A DNA stretch of 46,587 bases from a virus. Where the stretch lies: the IMG/VR virus record IMGVR_UViG_3300033816_000156, positions 1-46,587 of that record. One strand, 5' to 3'. This document shows, piece by piece, positions 2,883-46,587 of the stretch. The position numbers were made by a program, and so were the translations under genes. Under the pieces are notes generated by a model that worked only from the letters and a program-made list of their open reading frames with translations, was not told the origin of the DNA and ran no database searches. Numbering within the stretch: the first letter of the stretch is position 1; each line of letters opens with the position of its first letter.

Positions 2883-3836
2883 ATGTCTGATGCCATTGGC
2901 GACTACTTAAACAGTATCGCTCGTTATCCACTTTTGACACCGCAACAAGAGATACAACTTGGCCGCCGCGTCGCAAAGTGGAAAGAACTAAAGGATCTTG
3001 AAAGACCTTTGACCACTCAGGAACGCCGCGAGTTGCGCAGTGGCGAACGCGCCCGCCAGCGATTTATGCAGTCCAACTTGCAGCTTGTGGTGCATGTAGC
3101 CCGCAAATACAGCAAGCGCAACAATCAGACACTGGAGATGCTTGATCTGATCCAAGAGGGGAACATCGGGCTTGCGCGTGCTGTAGAACTATTTGACTAC
3201 AGCCGTGGTTATAAGTTCAGCACCTACGCATACTGGTGGATCCGTCAAGCCATTGGCCGCGCATTGGTGCAATATGACCCGATCATCAGACTGCCGCTCG
3301 GCATTCACGAGATGCTGGTCAAGCTGAATAAGACTGCGCAGTTATTTGCGCAGGAACATGGCCGCACTGCGAGCATGTCGGAGCTTGCCGTCATGCTTGA
3401 GGTAAAGCCTGAAGTCATATCTAATGCACTTCGGCAAGCGTATCGCGTCACTAGTCTTGACAAGCCAACGCAAGAAGATACATCTAACATCCTGGATCTT
3501 ATTGCAGATGAAAAGCAATATGACGTTGAATATGATTGGCAGCTTGAGATGCTGCGTGATCATTGCGAGCAATATCTAGATGAACGCACTCGTGAAATTA
3601 TCTACGCACGCAACAGCCGAAACCCAGTGCCTTGGAACGAGCTAGAGCAACGCATGGGTTTATCACGTGGCCACATGTGCCAGCTTCAATTACGTGGTAT
3701 CAATCGGCTTCGTATGCTAATAGGCAATCCGCTGGCAGGCACCCCACTTGGCGCCAACGATAAAGAAAGTAGGGAACATTTGGAGAGTATGCCTAGCGGG
3801 GATGTGCAAAGATCACCAGCAGGAATGGCAGGCTAA
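2883..3836 (+). CDS. Phage-encoded sigma-70 family RNA polymerase sigma factor
   Basis: This 317-aa sigma factor resembles cyanobacterial group 2 factors. Region 1.2 is at residues 3-33 (IGDYLNSIARYPLLTPQQEI). Region 2 spans about 58-130, with LVVHVARKYS, LDLIQEGNIGL and the promoter-melting/-10 segment YKFSTYAYWWIRQAIGRAL. Region 3 begins with IRLPLGIHEML near 135-145, and a divergent region 4 HTH lies near 233-280 (WNELEQRMGLSRGHMCQLQ). A long variable C-terminal tail follows. It should redirect host RNA polymerase to phage promoters. The divergent region 4 suggests an altered -35 preference. The gene ends the rightward module and overlaps the convergent HNH gene by 4 bases. Confidence 0.93.
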   Translation: MSDAIGDYLNSIARYPLLTPQQEIQLGRRVAKWKELKDLERPLTTQERRELRSGERARQRFMQSNLQLVVHVARKYSKRNNQTLEMLDLIQEGNIGLARAVELFDYSRGYKFSTYAYWWIRQAIGRALVQYDPIIRLPLGIHEMLVKLNKTAQLFAQEHGRTASMSELAVMLEVKPEVISNALRQAYRVTSLDKPTQEDTSNILDLIADEKQYDVEYDWQLEMLRDHCEQYLDERTREIIYARNSRNPVPWNELEQRMGLSRGHMCQLQLRGINRLRMLIGNPLAGTPLGANDKESREHLESMPSGDVQRSPAGMAG

Positions 3837-29569: not shown

Positions 29570-29820
29570 CGTTCAATGCCAAGATCTTCCGGTTGATAGC
29601 CGCTGCGAATGCTGACATTAGCGCCACGGTTCAATGCAGTAGTAACCAATGCAGCGAATGCGTCGTAACCGTTTTGGCCGTCTTCAAACAAGATAGTTTC
29701 GTCAATTTCATCTGGCTTGCCTTCCTTATACCAGCTGATGCGCACGATGGCTAAGACTTCTTCAGGCAAGGCACTGACGTGATAATCAAGCTCTTGCCTC
29801 CTCGGCTTCCTCGGTTCCAT
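29566..29820 (-). CDS. Small protein between portal and MuF genes (84 aa)
   Basis: I place the start at the ATG at 29820 (MEPRKPRRQELDYHV); earlier in-frame starts up to 29886 would lie deeper inside the portal gene. The product has EVLAIVRISWYKEGKPDEID and FAALVTTALNRGANVSIRSG, which looks like a small alpha-beta domain. The gene overlaps the portal gene by about 35 bases and the MuF-like gene by 4 bases. Function unknown. Confidence 0.68.
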   Translation of the reverse strand: MEPRKPRRQELDYHVSALPEEVLAIVRISWYKEGKPDEIDETILFEDGQNGYDAFAALVTTALNRGANVSIRSGYQPEDLGIER

Positions 29821-31231
29821 CCAGATCATCAGGTCCACTAAGCGATCGGTCACCCAGTCCAGCAGGTTGTAGATCAAGCCCCGCATTGGCTGTAGCCTCC
29901 AGCTCCTCGTCTACGTTAAAGTCATCGCCCAGCACATCGCCTTCGGCAAGCTCGCGCAATAGTGTCTCTTGCGTGATGGTGCCTGCGGTGTAAAGCTGCA
30001 GCAACGCTTGGATCTCCTGCGGCTCAAGGCGTGTGCCAAGGAAGTCGCGGTTGACATAGGCGCTACCAGGTGATGTGTTGTTGCCGATGAACTGCGCATG
30101 AAACTGCAGGCAGTTATCAATCATGTCCTGCACGTTTTGCGCAATCACCATCATGGTGCTGTCACCTTGGCTGCGATCAATGCGCTTTGCTTCGGCGGTT
30201 TCAGCAGACAGCTTCTGGCCCAGCACTGCTGATAGCCCTAACTCATTGATCTGCAGTGCAAGCTGCTCAAGCCTGCGGAACTGATAATCAAAACTGCGGC
30301 CAGCGGGTTCGATGTATTCAGCGCGGCCATCGGCAGGGAATGCGATGGCTTCACCCGGTCCGGCGCTGACTTCCTCTGCTGCAGACGGGAAGCCATAGAA
30401 GGCCAGCATCGGCACAGCGCTGATATGGAGCTGGTTATCGAGGTCGCTCTGGATCTGATACGCCTTTAGGTTCAGCTCAGCGATGTCTTCCAGCGGCGGC
30501 CGTGACTCCATGAAGCCATGGCGCTGCGCATAGGCAACTGAGAATGGAATCTCACTAAGGCTGGTCCGGCCCTCGTCGACAACTTGGAAATCTCCGTTGT
30601 CTTGCTTTTGGTGCAGTTGGTATTCACCTGGCGTCAGCACGCGGATCTGCTCAACTGCCTTCTCGCCAAACTCGCCATCGGGCACGGCGACCATCTCAGC
30701 GAGTCGCAATTGCGTCAATACCTGCCGGCCTTCCTGCTGCTCAGCACGCCAGCCAAGGATTTGCCGCGGGGTGTAGCTCACCCAATAGGGTCTACCCCCA
30801 TCAGCAGGTGCATCCACCAGTACACCAATGTGGCCATAACGGACCATCTTGCGGGTGGTTTCGTAAGTCCAGACGTTGAGGTCATTGCCTTGTAGGTCAA
30901 CATCAAACAACTGCTCGCGGATTACATCGGCCGTGTCATCAAGCCGCACTGGCTTACGCGTCAACATGCCAGCCAGCATCCGCTCTAGGCGCTGATAGAA
31001 CGGCGGGCAAACACTGCGCGCTAGGCGGTTGTCGTAGGACTCGTCCAGCTCGCGGGGTTCCTGCGGCAAATACCGGCGATGCTTGCGCCGCATCCCATAG
31101 GTTCCGCTCAGTAGATCCTCAATGAGAACCCAATGCGGCTCCATCGCGTACCACGATGAGTTGGCATCTTGCACGCGAGTAACGCGGCGCTGCGCAATCG
31201 GCCGGTCGTATGCGTTAAAGCCGGTGTACAT
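29786..31231 (-). CDS. Portal protein (DUF4055 type)
   Basis: The 481-aa product matches phage portal proteins of the DUF4055 group: an N-terminal region with HRRYLPQEPRELDESYDNRL and PFYQRLERMLAGMLTRKPV, a wing/stem with WTYETTRKMVRYGHIGVLVD, SYTPRQILGWRAEQQEGRQV and RPPLEDIAELNLKAYQIQSD, then LSAETAEAKRIDRSQGDSTM. The C-terminus is acidic. It would form the 12-subunit ring at the packaging vertex. It comes after terminase and cyAbrB and before the MuF-like gene. Confidence 0.92.
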   Translation of the reverse strand: MYTGFNAYDRPIAQRRVTRVQDANSSWYAMEPHWVLIEDLLSGTYGMRRKHRRYLPQEPRELDESYDNRLARSVCPPFYQRLERMLAGMLTRKPVRLDDTADVIREQLFDVDLQGNDLNVWTYETTRKMVRYGHIGVLVDAPADGGRPYWVSYTPRQILGWRAEQQEGRQVLTQLRLAEMVAVPDGEFGEKAVEQIRVLTPGEYQLHQKQDNGDFQVVDEGRTSLSEIPFSVAYAQRHGFMESRPPLEDIAELNLKAYQIQSDLDNQLHISAVPMLAFYGFPSAAEEVSAGPGEAIAFPADGRAEYIEPAGRSFDYQFRRLEQLALQINELGLSAVLGQKLSAETAEAKRIDRSQGDSTMMVIAQNVQDMIDNCLQFHAQFIGNNTSPGSAYVNRDFLGTRLEPQEIQALLQLYTAGTITQETLLRELAEGDVLGDDFNVDEELEATANAGLDLQPAGLGDRSLSGPDDLDGTEEAEEARA

Positions 31232-31257: not shown

Positions 31258-31578
31258 TTAGGCGGCAGTCAGCGTGATGCTATTGCGACCAATCTTGATG
31301 TCAAACTCGGCGCCGGGTTCATAGCCCATCTCACGCAGGTAGCCGTCACCAATCTGCAGCTTGCCGTTGAATTGCACCTTGGCCTTGTAGGTCAACTTGC
31401 GGCCTTTGCTGGCAACCTTATTGCCTAGGTCAACGCCTTTGGCTTCCAGCAGCGCTTCATAGAACTGCGTGAATGCCACGCGGTCTTTGACCACGTAACC
31501 GCAAGCGCGCACCAGTTCGGACTTAGGCGCATCGCCCAGTTCTTTGACCTTGGCGAGTAGTTCAGCACCCTTGAGCAT
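31258..31578 (-). CDS. abrB: Cyanobacterial AbrB-type transcription regulator (cyAbrB-like)
   Basis: The 106-aa product follows cyAbrB layout. The N-terminal domain has LLAKVKELGDAPKSELVRAC and FTQFYEALLEAKGVDLG, and a C-terminal AbrB-like swapped-hairpin domain spans about residues 58-106 (KGRKLTYKAKVQFNGKLQIG, LREMGYEPGAEFDIKIG). The cyanobacterial proteins put the DNA-binding domain at the C-terminus, as here, unlike Bacillus AbrB. In cyanobacteria they are global regulators of nitrogen and carbon metabolism. The N-terminal domain is slightly shorter than in host proteins. It is placed between terminase and portal, so it should be made late. It may act on host or phage promoters. Confidence 0.87.
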   Translation of the reverse strand: MLKGAELLAKVKELGDAPKSELVRACGYVVKDRVAFTQFYEALLEAKGVDLGNKVASKGRKLTYKAKVQFNGKLQIGDGYLREMGYEPGAEFDIKIGRNSITLTAA

Positions 31579-31602: not shown

Positions 31603-32952
31603 TCAATATAGTCTGATGCCCGTGGATCGGCCAGCACCTGCGTGCAATGGGTTGAACTCACGCCAGACCAAGTAGCCCAGCGCGTCGTTCATGTGGTCAT
31701 GGCCGGCATCCTTATCGGGGTCGCCCTTGTCGGTGTAGCACTGCAGCTCTAGGCATTCGATCAGTCGCTTACAGCGCTGGTGGATGGTGAGCCTGACTTG
31801 GCCCTTGCCGTTTTCCAGCAAAGCTTGAACAGCAGCCACGCGATCACGGACGGGAGGATTTGCGCGTGGTGACTGGTTTGACATGCCGTAGGACTCCAGG
31901 ATCTGGATGTCGGTCTGGCTTGCGTTGGTGCTGCGGTTGCCGCCGCTGGCATCTGGGTAGATGTAGATACGCCGCTGCGGGTAACGCGCTTGGATCTCTT
32001 GCGCCAATGCGTCGGTGTCATGGGCGCCGCTGATCTCATCAATGAGTAGCAGGCTGCTGCCGGTGCGGATGCCGATCACGGCAGACATGTTGCCAACGTT
32101 GAAATCAACGCCAATGCGCAGCGGCTCGCGGTCTAGGTCTGGCAGCTCAACCACCACATGCCTCTCACGGCTGAAGCGGTCATAGATGATGCCAGTGGTG
32201 AGGTTAACGAACTCACCGTCTAGGTAGGCCCGCAGCAGGTTGGGGTCGTAGTTGGCTTCTAGCCGCTCGATAAAGTCCGGCGGCAGATGCGGGTTGTCTG
32301 CTGATCGCATCTTGATCAGCTTGCGATCGGCACGTCCCTTGGCCTCCTCACTGCCGAAGGTGTTCCACATCCAGCGGAAGCCTTCTGGTGTGGATGCAGC
32401 ACCAAACTGCCGCACGTTGCCCGACCGCAAGCGACCAAGGATTTTGGGAAATGCCTTGTTGGCGATAGATGGCGTCACTGTGTCGATCTCGTCGGCCAGC
32501 ACCCAGGCAAGGTTCAAGCCGATGATGCGGCTCCAGTTCTCGAAGCTGCGGCACAGGATCTTGGTATCACCGCCCGGCAGGTGCAGCATGTATTCAGGCA
32601 GCGGGCTCGCCCTGAAGGTGTAGGGGATCTCATACGCCTCCAAGAACTGCTCAAAGTCGTTCTGCCAAATGTCGCGGATTAGAGGGCCAGTGGGTTCCAT
32701 CACTGCACCGATGAATCCCTGATTGGCCGCGGCCAGCATCACCGCCTTGGCGCACAGCGCACGGGTCTTGCCGGCGCCATAACCAGCTGAGATGCCGATG
32801 ATCTGCGTGTCGCTGTCGTCTACAAACGCAAGCTGCCCTGGGTGTAGATCAGCGCGGATGCGCTGCAGCAGATCGCCCGTGTCCTCTTGCGTTGCAACAT
32901 CCATAAACCCAAGCAGGCTGCCGGGTTGGCAGATGCCGGCGATCAGGCTCAT
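31603..32952 (-). CDS. terL: Terminase large subunit
   Basis: This 449-aa packaging motor has an ATPase domain with Walker A SAGYGAGKT (residues 55-63) and Walker B VLADE (151-155), and an RNase H-like nuclease domain with Asp283 (GVDFNVG), Asp334 (YIYPDASGG) and a DHMNDALGY end. It cuts concatemeric DNA and pumps it through the portal. The ATG overlaps the small-subunit gene by 4 bases, as usual. An internal ATG at residue 17 is a possible later start. Confidence 0.95.
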   Translation of the reverse strand: MSLIAGICQPGSLLGFMDVATQEDTGDLLQRIRADLHPGQLAFVDDSDTQIIGISAGYGAGKTRALCAKAVMLAAANQGFIGAVMEPTGPLIRDIWQNDFEQFLEAYEIPYTFRASPLPEYMLHLPGGDTKILCRSFENWSRIIGLNLAWVLADEIDTVTPSIANKAFPKILGRLRSGNVRQFGAASTPEGFRWMWNTFGSEEAKGRADRKLIKMRSADNPHLPPDFIERLEANYDPNLLRAYLDGEFVNLTTGIIYDRFSRERHVVVELPDLDREPLRIGVDFNVGNMSAVIGIRTGSSLLLIDEISGAHDTDALAQEIQARYPQRRIYIYPDASGGNRSTNASQTDIQILESYGMSNQSPRANPPVRDRVAAVQALLENGKGQVRLTIHQRCKRLIECLELQCYTDKGDPDKDAGHDHMNDALGYLVWREFNPLHAGAGRSTGIRLY

Positions 32953-33272
32953 GACATCTCAAACCGCAACAGCTTGGCCTGATCTTCTAACGCTTTGATT
33001 GCAATACTGAGATTGCCTTTAGCGCGTGCTTCGCGTTCGTAATCCTGCAGGCGAGCGACAGCAGCAGCAAGCCACTGCGGCCGCTCTAGCTCTGCATCCA
33101 ACGCCATGAGCTGGCGAGCGCGAGACATGTAAATCTCTGCCTGACGCTCGCCTACATCCCATGTTTCCGACGCAAATCGTATAATTTGCGTCCTACTGTG
33201 TGCACGCAAAAGCAGATCGTAAACGGTGTTTACCCGCTGATCTGATTCGGAGTTGGTGCACTTTTTAGCCAC
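32949..33272 (-). CDS. terS: Terminase small subunit-like DNA-binding protein
   Basis: The 107-aa product has an N-terminal HTH-like region (RVNTVYDLLLRAHSRTQIIR, WDVGERQAEIYMSRARQLM) and a C-terminal helical part (RLQDYEREARAKGNLSIAIK, DQAKLLRF), a layout shared by small terminase subunits of cyanophages and related phages. It should recognise the packaging start. It directly precedes terL with a 4-base overlap. Confidence 0.83.
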   Translation of the reverse strand: MAKKCTNSESDQRVNTVYDLLLRAHSRTQIIRFASETWDVGERQAEIYMSRARQLMALDAELERPQWLAAAVARLQDYEREARAKGNLSIAIKALEDQAKLLRFEMS

Positions 33273-33275
33273 CGT

Positions 33276-34316
33276 TTAGCCCTTAATTTGCACAGGCATT
33301 ACAAGATAAGTTACACCGTCCACGCCACTAGGTGTCAGCACCACGGGTGTGGTTTCCGTATTGGCGTGCAGCGTGATGGCTTCTGCGGGCTTGAACGCCT
33401 TGATGCCGTCTAGTAGGTAGTGGACGTTGAACGCCCACGCGCCATTGGCGGTGCCTTCCACTTTGAGCAGCTCCTTGCCGTTGTTGGCGTCTGATTCAGC
33501 AGTGATGGCGATGGTGCCACCTACTGCCTCGATCTTGACGATGGAGTTGTGCGCATCGGCGATGATGGCGACACGCTCCAGTGCACGGGTCAGTCGGCGG
33601 CGGTCGGCGGTGATGGTGCTTTTGAACTCAGCGGGTACCAGCTTGGCCACGTCTGGGTAGGTGCCATCCATGATGCGCGAGTACACCATGACTCCATCGC
33701 CTGCGTCAATCACGGCTTGCCCTTTGGCAACGGCGATGGTGACCACGCGATCCTGCAACAGGCGCATGGTGCTGGCGGGTAGCACGAGGTCTAGGCCATC
33801 TGGCAAATCAATGGCGTAACGCATCAGGCGATGCCCGTCAGTGGCTTCCATGTGGCCATTGCCAAGGTGGATGCCTTGAAGCATCTGCTTGCTGGCGTCG
33901 GTGCTGGCAGCTGCCATGCAGGCGCGGATGCCGGCGGATAGGTGCAGCTCGCTCGTAGCGGCGTCCACAACCGGCAGCGCGGGGTAATCCGCCGCATCAG
34001 CCGCTGCAAGCCCGTAGGAGCCCGCAGAAGCCGTCAGGGCGCCATCTGCGAGGGTCAGAGCCTCATCGCCATCAAAGCGGCTCACAAGGCCAGCCAGCAG
34101 CCGATACGGCAGCACTACGGCGCCATCGGTCTCCACTGCCGCTGGGATGGTGACGGTGATGCCGAGGTCAAGGTTGAAGCCGGTGATGGTCATGGCACCA
34201 CCGGCGGATTGGATCAGGCAGCAGTCAAGGATCGGATGGCTGCTGCGATGGCCAACGGCTGGCGCAATGGTGCGCAATGCGTGATCGAGATCGGCTTGGC
34301 AGGTAACGGCTTTCAT
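33276..34316 (-). CDS. dnaN: DNA polymerase III beta sliding clamp
   Basis: The 346-aa product is a three-domain sliding clamp like bacterial DnaN. It has the HPILDCCLIQSAGGAMTITG pattern in domain 1, RACMAAASTDASKQMLQGIH and MEATDGHRLMRYAIDL in domain 2, VYSRIMDGTYPDVAKLVPAE near the domain 2-3 border, and the terminal YLVMPVQIKG. No phage DNA polymerase or clamp loader was found in the window, so it should load on DNA with host factors and bind the host polymerase or phage repair enzymes. It lies between the terminase genes and the iteron-like region. Confidence 0.93.
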   Translation of the reverse strand: MKAVTCQADLDHALRTIAPAVGHRSSHPILDCCLIQSAGGAMTITGFNLDLGITVTIPAAVETDGAVVLPYRLLAGLVSRFDGDEALTLADGALTASAGSYGLAAADAADYPALPVVDAATSELHLSAGIRACMAAASTDASKQMLQGIHLGNGHMEATDGHRLMRYAIDLPDGLDLVLPASTMRLLQDRVVTIAVAKGQAVIDAGDGVMVYSRIMDGTYPDVAKLVPAEFKSTITADRRRLTRALERVAIIADAHNSIVKIEAVGGTIAITAESDANNGKELLKVEGTANGAWAFNVHYLLDGIKAFKPAEAITLHANTETTPVVLTPSGVDGVTYLVMPVQIKG

Positions 34317-42826: not shown

Positions 42827-43614
42827 CCAGCAACGCCGACTACCACGCCGATCCGGCGGTCAGCGCTTCGCACCTGCACGCAGTGGCCAAGTCGCCCTAC
42901 CACTATTGGAGCCGCTACCTCGACCCCAAGCGCAGTGCACCCGAGCCAACTGCTGCTATGCGGCTTGGCTCACTGGTGCATTGCGCAGTGCTGGAACCGG
43001 AGGAGCTGCTGCAGCGCTATGGCGTCTGCGGGCCGCGAAATACCAAAGCCGGCAAGGAGCAGGCGGATCGGATGGCCGCTGCTGGCATTGAAGCGGTCAC
43101 GCAATCCGACATGGCACTGGCGCTATCCATGGCTGCCAGCGTCCGCGTGCATCCTGCAGCAGCAGCACTGCTTGCCCATGGCAAGGCTGAGCAGTCCTTC
43201 TGGTGGGATGACGCCGCCACTGGGCTGCGCTGCAAGTGCCGCCCTGACTGGTATGACGGCGCCACTGTGGTGGATCTCAAGACCACCACGGATGCCAGCC
43301 CTGCCGGCTTCGCCCGTAGCGTGGCTACCTTCCGCTACCATGTGCAAGCGAGCCACTACCTAGCCGGCTTGCACGGTGCTGAGCGGTTTGTGTTCATTGC
43401 CGTTGAAAAGACTGCTCCGTACGCGGTTGCGGTCTACGAGCTGGACGCCGCGGCCATGGCTGCTGGTGATGAGCTGCGGCAACGTGACATGCGCGTGATC
43501 GCCGACTGCCAAGCCACCAAGGAGTGGCCGGGTTACGGCGACACGTGCCAAGCGCTCAGCCTGCCTTCATGGGCATTAACTGCCAACCCAACTATCACAT
43601 CCGATGACTTCTAG
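42823..43614 (+). CDS. RecE-like PD-(D/E)XK exonuclease
   Basis: This 263-aa protein shows the RecE/YqaJ-like core: an SASHLHAVAKSPYHYWSRYL start, MRLGSLVHCAVLEP (His53), RPDW (Asp142), VVDLKTTTDASP with Asp151 and Lys153, and FRYHVQASHYLAG. It should digest 5' ends of double-stranded DNA to expose 3' single strands for Bet. The bet gene begins inside its last 11 bases, the typical coupling. The C-terminal 20 residues are also present at the left end of the window. Confidence 0.88.
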   Translation: MTSNADYHADPAVSASHLHAVAKSPYHYWSRYLDPKRSAPEPTAAMRLGSLVHCAVLEPEELLQRYGVCGPRNTKAGKEQADRMAAAGIEAVTQSDMALALSMAASVRVHPAAAALLAHGKAEQSFWWDDAATGLRCKCRPDWYDGATVVDLKTTTDASPAGFARSVATFRYHVQASHYLAGLHGAERFVFIAVEKTAPYAVAVYELDAAAMAAGDELRQRDMRVIADCQATKEWPGYGDTCQALSLPSWALTANPTITSDDF

Positions 43615-44359
43615 CATCACGCTCTGGACACCAGAGCAAACGCAGCTGATCTCAACCACCATTGCGCCTGGCTGCAGCAATGACGAGTTGCGCCTGTTTG
43701 CCTACGCCTGCCAGCGCACTGGACTGGATCCGTTCAGCAAACAGATCTACGCCATCAAGCGTGGCGGCAAGATGACCATCCAAGCCGGCATTGACGGCTT
43801 GCGTGCCATTGCCGAGCGCACCGGGCAACTTGATGGCAGCATCACTGAATGGTGCGGTGAAGACGGCCAGTGGACTGATGTATGGCTGGGCAGCAAGCCA
43901 CCTGCCGCGGCCAAGACCACTATCTGGCGCAAAGGTGCCAACCATCCATTTACTGGCGTTGCACGCTTTGCTGACTACAACGCCGGCCAAGGCTTGTGGT
44001 CCAAGATGGGCGCAGCGATGATCGCCAAATGCTCTGAGGCATTGGCACTGCGCAAGGCGTTTCCCGCAGACATGTCCGGTGTCTACAGCACCGATGAGAT
44101 GCAGCAGGCAGAGGTGGAGCCGGTGACCGTTACCGCTGCACCCACGCTCCCGGCAGGCGACGCCAAGCTGTTCCAAGCCGGTAAGGCTGCGATTGCCAAG
44201 GCCGACACGCTGGACAAGCTGCAGGAGGTGGTAGCGCGCATGGATAAGCGCAAGCCTGATCTCAGCGATGAGCAGAACGATGAGTTGCTGCGCCTTGCTG
44301 TAGAGCGCGAAGCGGTGCTATCCGACACGCCATCGGAGGATCCCTTCGCTGATGACTGA
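43604..44359 (+). CDS. bet: Bet/RecT-family single-strand annealing protein, copy B
   Basis: The 251-aa protein equals copy A except for two scattered residues (Thr to Ile in the STTEW segment, Ala to Thr near 180) and a rewritten stretch just before the tail (residues about 224-243). The acidic EDPFADD end is the same. It follows the complete RecE-like gene here, so this is the intact exonuclease/annealase pair of the window. It should promote annealing during phage recombination and concatemer formation. Confidence 0.93.
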   Translation: MTSSITLWTPEQTQLISTTIAPGCSNDELRLFAYACQRTGLDPFSKQIYAIKRGGKMTIQAGIDGLRAIAERTGQLDGSITEWCGEDGQWTDVWLGSKPPAAAKTTIWRKGANHPFTGVARFADYNAGQGLWSKMGAAMIAKCSEALALRKAFPADMSGVYSTDEMQQAEVEPVTVTAAPTLPAGDAKLFQAGKAAIAKADTLDKLQEVVARMDKRKPDLSDEQNDELLRLAVEREAVLSDTPSEDPFADD

Positions 44360-44561
44360 ACCATTCCTCACTACTGATGAGCTGGCAGCACGTTGGGGGT
44401 TGAAGCCAGCAGCCATCAAAAACCAACGTGCACGCGGTATTGGCCCTGCTTACGTCACCGCACCACGCATTGGCCTGCCAGCAGGCACGCCACGTGTCCG
44501 TTATCCCCTTGCACAAGTCTTGGCTTTTGAAGAAGCCAATGGCATCACACCACTGAACTGA
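44352..44561 (+). CDS. Small HTH DNA-binding protein, copy B
   Basis: The 69-aa excisionase/MerR-like HTH differs from copy A by two substitutions (Ile to Val and Leu to Pro in the wing region). Here the only sensible start is ATG 44352, which settles the start of copy A. It overlaps bet by 8 bases and precedes ssb by one base. Confidence 0.8.
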   Translation: MTEPFLTTDELAARWGLKPAAIKNQRARGIGPAYVTAPRIGLPAGTPRVRYPLAQVLAFEEANGITPLN

Positions 44562-44562
44562 C

Positions 44563-44913
44563 ATGAGCCTTTACGCAACCGGCATCGTTCGCATCATCAC
44601 CGACCCGCAACTGCGTGCCTTTGAATCCGGCACCATGGTTGCCAACTTCGCAGGTGGCATCCAGGAAGGCAAAGACAAAGACGGCAACTGGATCAATAAC
44701 GCAATCGACTGCGAGATCTGGGGCAAATCTGCTGAGCTGATCGTTGATAAGCTCAAAAAAGGCGACAGCATTCTTGTAACCGGTGCCGTACGCCGGCAAG
44801 AGTGGAACGACAAGGAGACCGGTGCCAAGCGCAGCAAGCATGTGCTCAGCATCCAGCGCTTTGAATTCATGCCACGCGGCGCAGCAACTACCAGCGAGGA
44901 GCCTGTGTTCTGA
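44563..44913 (+). CDS. ssb: Single-stranded DNA-binding protein, copy B
   Basis: The 116-aa OB-fold protein is identical to copy A, with the acidic SEEPVF tip, although 20 bases differ. All differences are synonymous, nearly all at third positions. Function and context are as for copy A, here behind a complete RecE-like/bet pair. Confidence 0.95.
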   Translation: MSLYATGIVRIITDPQLRAFESGTMVANFAGGIQEGKDKDGNWINNAIDCEIWGKSAELIVDKLKKGDSILVTGAVRRQEWNDKETGAKRSKHVLSIQRFEFMPRGAATTSEEPVF

Positions 44914-45068
44914 TGAATCAAACCACACTTGATATTGCATTCAAGGAGTGGTGGGAGGCGTCCTACGGGCGCCCTCCCGGCACCCATGCAGTGATGACAC
45001 ACGTGGCATTTGCCGCGCATATTCTTGAACTCCTGGAGCTGATGCAAGATGATCAACCACAAGACTGA
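44913..45068 (+). CDS. Small conserved protein of unknown function, copy B (51 aa)
   Basis: The product matches copy A up to the MQD segment with two substitutions (Glu to Asp, His to Pro) and then ends in DQPQD. This is probably the original end, since copy A is altered by a deletion there. It overlaps ssb by one base and the next gene by 20 bases. Confidence 0.75.
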   Translation: MNQTTLDIAFKEWWEASYGRPPGTHAVMTHVAFAAHILELLELMQDDQPQD

Positions 45069-45204
45069 ACAGCGCCGTGATGACTACTTGCAGTGGCTGT
45101 ACGAGCAAAGCGGCCGGACCTGCTGCACCTACACCGGGCTATATCAACAGCGCATTGCTGATCTGGTCCGCCGCGATATGGCAGAGGTATTGGGTGATGA
45201 GTGA
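45049..45204 (+). CDS. Small protein present only in copy B (51 aa)
   Basis: The frame encodes INHKTEQRRDDYLQWLYEQS, a CC pair in RTCCTYTGLY, and a helical RIADLVRRDMAEVLGDE end. It lies between the 51-aa protein and DUF3310 with overlaps on both sides. Copy A lacks it through a 148-base deletion between two GATGA pentamers (45048 and 45196 in copy B). I do not recognise the family; with its YLQWLYEQ core it looks like a small helical protein. Confidence 0.68.
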   Translation: MINHKTEQRRDDYLQWLYEQSGRTCCTYTGLYQQRIADLVRRDMAEVLGDE

Positions 45205-45415
45205 TCTCGTCAACCATCCGCCGCATTACAAGCACGGCGACATTGAGTGCATCCAAGCCATTAAGGCAGCACTCGGTGATGACGGCTTTCGCGCTTACTG
45301 CAAAGGCAACGTCATCAAATACCTATGGCGTGCCGAGCACAAGGGCAATGCCGATCAGGACTACGGCAAAGCCGACTGGTACATGCGCAGGTTGCTGCTG
45401 CATGTAGATGAGTGA
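45197..45415 (+). CDS. DUF3310 family protein, copy B
   Basis: The ATG at 45197 gives a 72-aa protein with VNHPPHYKHGDIECIQAIKA and GNVIKYLWRAEHKGNADQDY; starts further upstream in this frame lie inside the preceding gene. It differs from copy A at a few residues and in the last three. Its role in nucleotide metabolism is not defined. It overlaps the HTH gene by 8 bases. Confidence 0.87.
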   Translation: MSDLVNHPPHYKHGDIECIQAIKAALGDDGFRAYCKGNVIKYLWRAEHKGNADQDYGKADWYMRRLLLHVDE

Positions 45416-45593
45416 TCCGTTTAAGCGCGGCGAGGCAAACTACGCCGCGTTTCTTACAGAAGATCACGTGCGCGAGCTGCGCCAGTTGCGTGTTGCTGGT
45501 AACAGCTACAGACAACTGGCAGAACGCTACGGCATCGACAAGAAACACGCATGGCGCATCTGCCAACGCATTGCATGGAGCTGGCTTGAATGA
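45408..45593 (+). CDS. Small HTH protein, allele B of the variable regulator locus
   Basis: The 61-aa product has the HTH pattern FLTEDHVRELRQLRVAGNSY and LAERYGIDKKHAWRICQRIA, like the DNA-binding part of phage HNH enzymes, but no nuclease. Compared with allele A (1702-1893) the layout is the same and similarity low, mainly LT...(E)LRQL and the YGI turn. The recognition helix differs completely, so the two probably bind different sites. Confidence 0.78.
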   Translation: MSDPFKRGEANYAAFLTEDHVRELRQLRVAGNSYRQLAERYGIDKKHAWRICQRIAWSWLE

Positions 45594-45925
45594 CACAAGA
45601 ACATCCCATCACCCCACCGCCTGAGCTGGTGCAAGCGTGGTCCGACGAGGCATTGACCGCCTCTGGAATGTTTGAAGTCAAGATGAATTTTGCCACCTAT
45701 GCCGCCCGCTGGGGCAGCGACCAAGAGCTGAAGGCGTGCTGTGAGTGGGTCAAAAGCAAGCAGACCTATTGGGCGCACGACGAACTCCGCGCCAGCCGCC
45801 GGCCCAAGCCGCCGAGCTTGAAGGAGCAGGCGCTTGACGAGCTGCACATCAGTTTCGACAGGGGCTACCTCAAGGAAGGAGCTGCCGACACCATCCGCCG
45901 CGCATTGGAGCAGCTCCCCGATTAG
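45590..45925 (+). CDS. Conserved cyanophage-type small protein, full-length allele B (111 aa)
   Basis: The protein starts EHPITPPPELVQAWSDEALT, contains YAARWGSDQELKACCEWVKS and RRPKPPSLKEQALDELHISF, and ends in DTIRRALEQLPD. This is the complete form; copy A lost about 109 bases near the end. The middle also differs between copies by a short insertion and several substitutions, more than in the other genes. Function unknown. Confidence 0.8.
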   Translation: MTQEHPITPPPELVQAWSDEALTASGMFEVKMNFATYAARWGSDQELKACCEWVKSKQTYWAHDELRASRRPKPPSLKEQALDELHISFDRGYLKEGAADTIRRALEQLPD

Positions 45926-45949
45926 CCAAGCCCACTATTTACTCAACCA

Positions 45950-46480
45950 ATGACCATTCTCTGCGACTACGAAATCAAAGCGCTGTGCACCGACGGCATG
46001 GTGCCGAACTACGACGAGGCATTGATCAATCCTGCCAGCCTTGATCTACGGCTTGGTGACACGATCATGATCGAGTCCGCCGAAAACCTCAACATGCGGC
46101 CACTCAGCATTGCAGGACGCACGGCGGAAAATCCGTACGAACTCAAGCCAGGGCAATTCATCCTTGCACAGACGATTGAAGTGTTCAACATGCCGGAGAA
46201 CATTGCCGGCCTGTTCTTTCTTAAGTCAAGCCGCGCGCGGGAAGGCTACGAAAATCTGCACGCCGGTTACGCAGATCCTGGCTGGCATGGCAGCGTGCTG
46301 ACCTTGGAGCTGAAGAACTCACGCCAGATCCTGCCGCTGCCGCTTTGGCCTGGCTTAAAGATCGGGCAGATGGTGTTCTTCCGCATGAGCCAGCAGCCGG
46401 TGACCAGCTACAGCGTTACAGGCCATTACAACTCAGACATCACGACGACGGCCTCGAAGCAGTTCCTCAGCGGCATCTAG
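45950..46480 (+). CDS. dcd: dCTP deaminase family protein (Dcd/dUTPase fold), copy B
   Basis: The 176-aa protein differs from copy A at one residue (Leu to Ile in the SRQLLPLPLW segment) despite many silent changes. The INPASLDLRLGD, KSSRAREGY and AGYADPGWHG motifs and Glu120 are intact. In this copy 24 bases separate it from the upstream gene, whereas copy A has a 4-base overlap created by the deletion. Confidence 0.88.
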   Translation: MTILCDYEIKALCTDGMVPNYDEALINPASLDLRLGDTIMIESAENLNMRPLSIAGRTAENPYELKPGQFILAQTIEVFNMPENIAGLFFLKSSRAREGYENLHAGYADPGWHGSVLTLELKNSRQILPLPLWPGLKIGQMVFFRMSQQPVTSYSVTGHYNSDITTTASKQFLSGI

Positions 46481-46587
46481 ATGCCACTGCTCTAGACCAG
46501 TCCGCAACGCTGCCGACGCTTCTTGCGCAAGCCAGTGGATTTGAGACCGCTGGCTTGCTTCTTGCTCGGCTAGCAGCAGCGCATATT
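46433..46587 (-). CDS. Antisense-oriented small protein, copy B (partial, runs off the window)
   Basis: This is the C-terminal part of the counterpart of the gene at 2624-2860; its start lies beyond the window. It contains YALLLAEQEASQRSQIHWLA and LDAAEELLRGRRRDV. Nine of the ten codons that differ from copy A outside the dcd overlap are synonymous. It overlaps the 3' end of dcd by 48 bases. Confidence 0.7.
   Translation of the reverse strand, partial: YALLLAEQEASQRSQIHWLAQEASAALRTGLEQWHLDAAEELLRGRRRDV

Follow-up and report, generated by a model that had tools for sequence, protein, structure and literature searches.

The window analysed here, an IMG/VR virus record of 46,587 nucleotides and of siphovirus type (tape measure, tail fibre, major head protein), carries a small cyAbrB gene separated by 24 and 26 nt from its TerL and portal neighbours, respectively (Table 1). 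Both neighbours were identified by PHROG searches, which confirms that the gene lies between terminase and portal, as originally predicted. No promoter was found directly upstream of the cyAbrB gene, the region holding 2 promoter-like sites against 4.5 expected. The isolated phages nearest to the window are the Synechococcus phages S-H1 and KBS-S-2A and Prochlorococcus phages of MED4-184 type, and the window sigma-70 factor shares ~40-52% identity with those of S-CBS1, S-CBS3 and KBS-S-2A. Of 18 related records, 17 encode such a factor; being as frequent without cyAbrB (7/7) as with it (10/11 of those tested), it does not form one module with cyAbrB, a possibility that we discarded. No tyrosine integrase was found in the 11 cyAbrB-bearing records tested. 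Note that the window starts and ends with matching sequence (1-2778 and 43553-46587; 92-93% identity, falling to 71% in an internal stretch), so that the record exceeds one genome length; the genome is probably circularly permuted, ~43.5 kb long and represented here by two joined strain variants.

Table 1. Position of the cyAbrB gene, its domains and the genes discussed in the text
Feature	Position	Strand	Basis
Phage cyAbrB gene, 106 aa, ATG start	31258..31578	-	PF14250 match and conserved ORF
N-terminal domain, residues 1-50, three helices and shortened hairpin	31429..31578	-	AlphaFold2 model; common to host cyAbrB and the 52-aa P-TIM68 protein
AbrB DNA-binding fold, residues 61-106	31261..31398	-	Structural matches AbrB, SpoVT, MazE; tail survey
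Terminase large subunit (TerL), upstream operon neighbour of cyAbrB	31603..32952	-	PHROG 2, PF17289, PF03237
Portal protein, downstream operon neighbour of cyAbrB	29786..31231	-	PHROG 145, 1e-116
Small ORF in terminase-small-subunit (TerS) place	32949..33272	-	Position before TerL; PHROG 34910 of unknown function
Beta-clamp, ahead of TerL	33276-34316		Pfam/PHROG searches
Phage sigma-70 factor, regulatory context	2883..3836	+	Pfam Sigma70 r1.2, r2, r3, r4; core gene of phage group

The encoded protein matches the Pfam family PF14250 ('AbrB-like') over residues 38-103 (E=4.1e-21, 75.3 bits, the curated cut-off being 25 bits). In its AlphaFold2 model, a monomer of moderate confidence (pLDDT 74), residues 66-105 adopt the beta-beta-alpha-beta-beta AbrB fold, and the best PDB matches of the model are AbrB, SpoVT and MazE. 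Alignment with host proteins, the model and the PDB matches give the same layout, a conserved N-domain followed by the AbrB fold at the C-terminus; the C-terminal position of the AbrB domain, which had been read from the sequence at the outset, is thus borne out and not a matter of chance. Searching the PDB by sequence alone with the single window protein returned no match, and none of the PHROG families or NCBIfam models covers it. A likeness of the N-domain to Lrp-type HTH domains (Z ~3) was too weak for use.

Relatives of the window protein are encoded in 262 stretches of viral contigs, to which scans started with host or portal queries added further, more diverse ones; the cyAbrB-bearing viruses form a large uncultured family that infects freshwater cyanobacteria. 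Counting all fetched cyAbrB locus records of the phage group, in which some contigs were fetched repeatedly, the order TerL-cyAbrB-portal on one strand was observed in 186 of the 186 having both neighbours, and none of the 14 further records cut at one side contradicts it. Cargo (small unknowns and, by sequence reading, HNH-type endonuclease-like and methyltransferase-like ORFs) is inserted on either side of cyAbrB or between TerS and TerL, while cyAbrB itself stays. Among this cargo, very basic proteins starting MARRYARDNRGRFSS or similar sit in the TerS-TerL or TerL-portal gap of the packaging operon (L019, L033, L055, L057, L060, L067, L282, L331, L392), and an ORF of ~198 aa (SNLNTIQITILGESPLLCHNGQ...) recurs upstream of the portal gene (L003, L013, L070, L074, L382). 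Four loci (L200, L201, L211, L219) display a clean terminase swap, in which a distant TerL (28-33% identity) has taken over beside a retained cyAbrB-portal pair.

The gene is missing from many close relatives. With the KBS-S-2A portal as bait, 37 loci carried cyAbrB, 35 had TerL and portal without it, 2 more had no cyAbrB upstream of the portal gene and 6 were cut; with the window portal, 47 carried it, 32 did not and 1 was cut. This amounts to absence in 35/72 and 32/79 relatives with a readable slot, respectively, their TerL and portal being ~80% identical. In these, the slot is empty or filled by other cargo or by a ~45-aa membrane-like ORF of one helix; we looked for an N-terminal-only relic in the ~240-bp slot of these relatives and found the membrane-like ORF or unrelated cargo instead. 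PF14250 was found nowhere else in seven long records without cyAbrB in the slot. Overall, the slot is stable and cyAbrB is an accessory occupant of it: some 40-50% of the close relatives lack the gene. KBS-S-2A, S-H1 and MED4-184 are without it as well; tblastn with the window protein revealed no relative among 50,697 phage records, and no isolated relative carrying the phage cyAbrB was found. As neither a PHROG family nor such an isolate is available, phage annotation pipelines likely miss the gene.

To place its origin, we compared the phage copies with host cyAbrBs. The likely hosts (Cyanobium, Synechococcus and kin) have 4-9 PF14250 genes per genome, the best loci being 54-62% identical to the window protein; other cyanobacteria having the family usually carry two copies. 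The phylogeny, which had been proposed as a check of the original prediction, places the window protein in the PF14250 family and groups 27 phage representatives in one clade (support 100/99, computed without tail columns and long branches, in a bootstrap that had not fully settled; 88 in a quicker tree). This clade adjoins picocyanobacterial host proteins, apart from those of other cyanobacteria, and is most simply explained by one capture from the picocyanobacterial cyAbrB family by an ancestor of the phage group. Other viral contigs (L165, L166, L176, L180, L183, L186 and L198 among others), which carry terminase, portal, tail or recombination genes, encode host-like cyAbrB copies; in the quicker tree, these scatter among host proteins, which suggests several further, separate captures by other phage lineages.

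A host cyAbrB query against the phage records matched only three entries. In AP013549 (uncultured phage MedDCM-OCT-S39-C11, a podovirus record of marine origin), the copy is full-length and distant, adjoins tail genes, is 28% identical to a host cyAbrB and was already annotated in the record as an AbrB-family regulator. In P-TIM68, AIR93619 (L410:4001-4159) consists of 52 aa corresponding to the cyAbrB N-terminal domain alone, with 51% identity to host residues 1-51 and a TM-score of 0.80 to the window model, normalised by its own length. Synechococcus phage B23 gp246 (L411:2411-2839) combines a cyAbrB N-domain with an unrelated C-terminus. Both of the latter phages are cyanomyophages, and both proteins are annotated as hypothetical.

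The phage copies are under purifying selection and differ from host proteins in a consistent manner. Within the clade of the window, median dN/dS is 0.075, constraint being equal on the N-domain and the AbrB domain and relaxed only in the linker, and the reading frame is open in every fetched phage copy. The window protein ends directly past the last strand, without the acidic C-terminal tail that is usual in host cyAbrBs and lies outside the Pfam definition of PF14250: acidic residues after the last strand average 0.2 (maximum 1) in 87 distinct phage proteins compared to 4.1 in 99 host proteins, and the net charge is +4.8 and +1.6, respectively. The N-domain hairpin is shortened from 12 to 7-8 residues in 56/87 phage proteins, including that of the window. 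Within the AbrB domain, near-fixed phage-host differences occur at residues 65, 78, 81, 82, 99, 100, 102 and 105, with changes from host to phage of V/T/N to K at 65, K to D/S/E at 78, T to a hydrophobic residue at 81, A mostly to R/K at 82, K to N at 99 and R to T at 102. At residue 73, the change from N to K is limited to part of the phage clade.

Loss of the residues needed for DNA binding had been named as an outcome that would speak against a regulatory role. As far as the sequence and the monomer model go, this outcome was not observed, basic residues not being grossly depleted in the modelled DNA-binding domain. In a structural alignment of model residues 61-106 on residues 3-48 of the Bacillus AbrB chain (offset 58), the proposed DNA-binding site R8, R15, R23 and R24 (PMC4022651) maps to A66, K73, L81 and R82 of the window protein, i.e. 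two of four are basic, a hint only at this model confidence; almost none of the matching positions is basic in picocyanobacterial host proteins. The mapping suggests that the predicted DNA-binding capacity is not obviously lost, and that specificity or affinity of the modelled phage AbrB domain may be shifted relative to the host.

In Synechocystis, cyAbrB2 covers long AT-rich tracts from which sigma factors are excluded and represses them, and the essential cyAbrB1 interacts with it; the authors liken cyAbrB2 to H-NS and Lsr2 and suggest a defence against foreign DNA (PMC11368403). The window gene, surrounded by phage genes, accordingly encodes a phage-carried counterpart, by homology, of a host protein described as a silencer or nucleoid protein. 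We favor, at about an even chance, the explanation that this homologue alters which DNA is silenced late in infection, on or through DNA bound by host cyAbrB. Being co-oriented and tightly spaced with the packaging genes, cyAbrB would be transcribed with TerL and portal and hence late; on operon position alone, late production is probable. On DNA, the protein would bind as a swapped-hairpin dimer, possibly mixed with host cyAbrB, which it would join or displace there; its mode of action is likened to that of phage-borne H-NS and Lsr2 homologues. Competition with host cyAbrB, already part of the original prediction, is plausible in view of the close homology, purifying selection on both domains and a modelled DNA-binding domain not grossly depleted of basic residues.

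Two outcomes may be envisaged. Phage DNA, lower in GC than that of the likely host (55.6% for the window and ~55-57% for the phage group, against a mean of 66.9% for the best-matching host loci), could be freed from host cyAbrB; alternatively, host or early phage genes could be held down while the phage sigma factor directs transcription. Note that phages with cyAbrB are not more AT-rich than those without (GC of 0.556 and 0.554, respectively), and we dropped this link. Timing is the weak point of our best explanation, since an anti-silencing protein is expected to act at the start of infection and would be oddly placed in a late operon. The equal GC, the many relatives that lack the gene, the unlinked sigma factor and the moderate confidence of the monomer model also count against it. 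Anti-silencing has about the same likelihood as a late role, be it host shut-off, turning early phage genes off or condensing DNA ahead of packaging.

The protein might instead regulate the phage's own genome with little effect on the host, repressing early genes or condensing replicated DNA before packaging. This would suit the fixed place in the packaging operon, the broad, nucleoid-protein-like binding of cyAbrB-type proteins (PMC11368403, PMC9241938) and an AbrB surface altered specifically in phage copies, but many close relatives manage without cyAbrB and the choice of a host regulator over an ordinary phage repressor is left unexplained; we consider it possible but doubtful. Metabolic reprogramming, the other half of the original prediction, supposes that late virion production is fed by the phage copy taking the place of host cyAbrB at nitrogen and carbon promoters. 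The close phage-host homology and the effects of Synechocystis cyAbrBs on nitrogen and carbon genes, as cited in PMC11368403, are in its favor. However, AbrB-domain positions are systematically unlike those of host copies, so that host promoters need not be recognised alike, and with 4-9 paralogues per likely host no single regulon can be assumed; moreover, published host data mainly concern Synechocystis cyAbrB1/2, of which cyAbrB2 now appears as a broad nucleoid-associated repressor (PMC11368403). This makes it unlikely. What had been predicted of the gene's identity, layout, phage carriage and operon place stands, and the interpretation as a whole stands in part.

A packaging or structural function was rejected as the main reading. 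A DNA-recognition helper of terminase that happens to have an AbrB fold would account for the TerL-portal position in every record, but a gene that is accessory and missing in so many relatives with otherwise complete TerL-portal pairs is hardly a packaging part; in addition, it stays with the portal when TerL is swapped, and a TerS-like ORF already precedes TerL. We regard such a helper as very improbable. Patchy presence would also fit a functionless host gene captured on its way to loss, an explanation made scarcely credible by the low dN/dS, the open frames and a single clade with shared changes. Viruses with cyAbrB probably interfere with the packing and reading of DNA in the host cell. 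More broadly, and with less assurance than for the window protein itself, we put forward that cyanophages repeatedly turn a host xenogeneic silencer against the host: through the tail-less, charge-retuned cyAbrB that the large siphovirus group fixed in its packaging operon, through separate host-like captures and, in some cyanomyophages, through N-domain-only copies as possible dominant-negative forms, which would place cyAbrB beside H-NS and Lsr2 as a further silencer family copied by phages.

In the open-access literature, combining cyAbrB or AbrB with phage or cyanophage retrieved no report of this gene. AbrB-domain proteins are already known in jumbo phages (PMC7824862), as are phage-borne H-NS and Lsr2 homologues (PMC7074111); phages carrying homologues of host nucleoid silencers are thus known in kind, and, to the extent that we could see, cyAbrB is a family new to that role. 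In photosynthetic cyanobacteria, cyAbrB is a DNA-binding regulator of high conservation that has been proposed as their H-NS-like silencer; a widespread phage family with its own altered version makes anti-phage silencing by cyAbrB, and its evasion, directly testable. As natural variants, the phage proteins also reveal where cyAbrB tolerates change, namely in the acidic tail, the N-domain hairpin and the AbrB surface.

Compared with host cyAbrB (PF14250; Synechocystis Sll0359/cyAbrB1 and Sll0822/cyAbrB2), the phage copy has the same two-domain layout and invariant core residues, and differs by the missing acidic tail, the near-fixed AbrB-domain changes, its separate clade, its phage operon context and, in the clade of the window, the shortened hairpin. 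Bacillus AbrB, SpoVT and MazE are swapped-hairpin proteins with the same fold as window residues 61-106 (Z ~4, 2.4-3.4 A) but only 10-20% sequence identity, and the DNA-binding domain is N-terminal in Bacillus AbrB and C-terminal here. The AP013549, P-TIM68 and B23 proteins share cyAbrB domains with the window protein; unlike the latter, the first adjoins tail genes and the other two have the N-domain without the AbrB fold. H-NS of EPV1, actinophage Lsr2 and CgpS of prophage CGP3, whose N-terminal part alone breaks silencing when overexpressed, are likewise host nucleoid-associated silencers taken up by phages (PMC7074111), whereas the phage cyAbrB, known here from sequence alone, belongs to an unrelated family and sits in the packaging operon of phages with no detected integrase.
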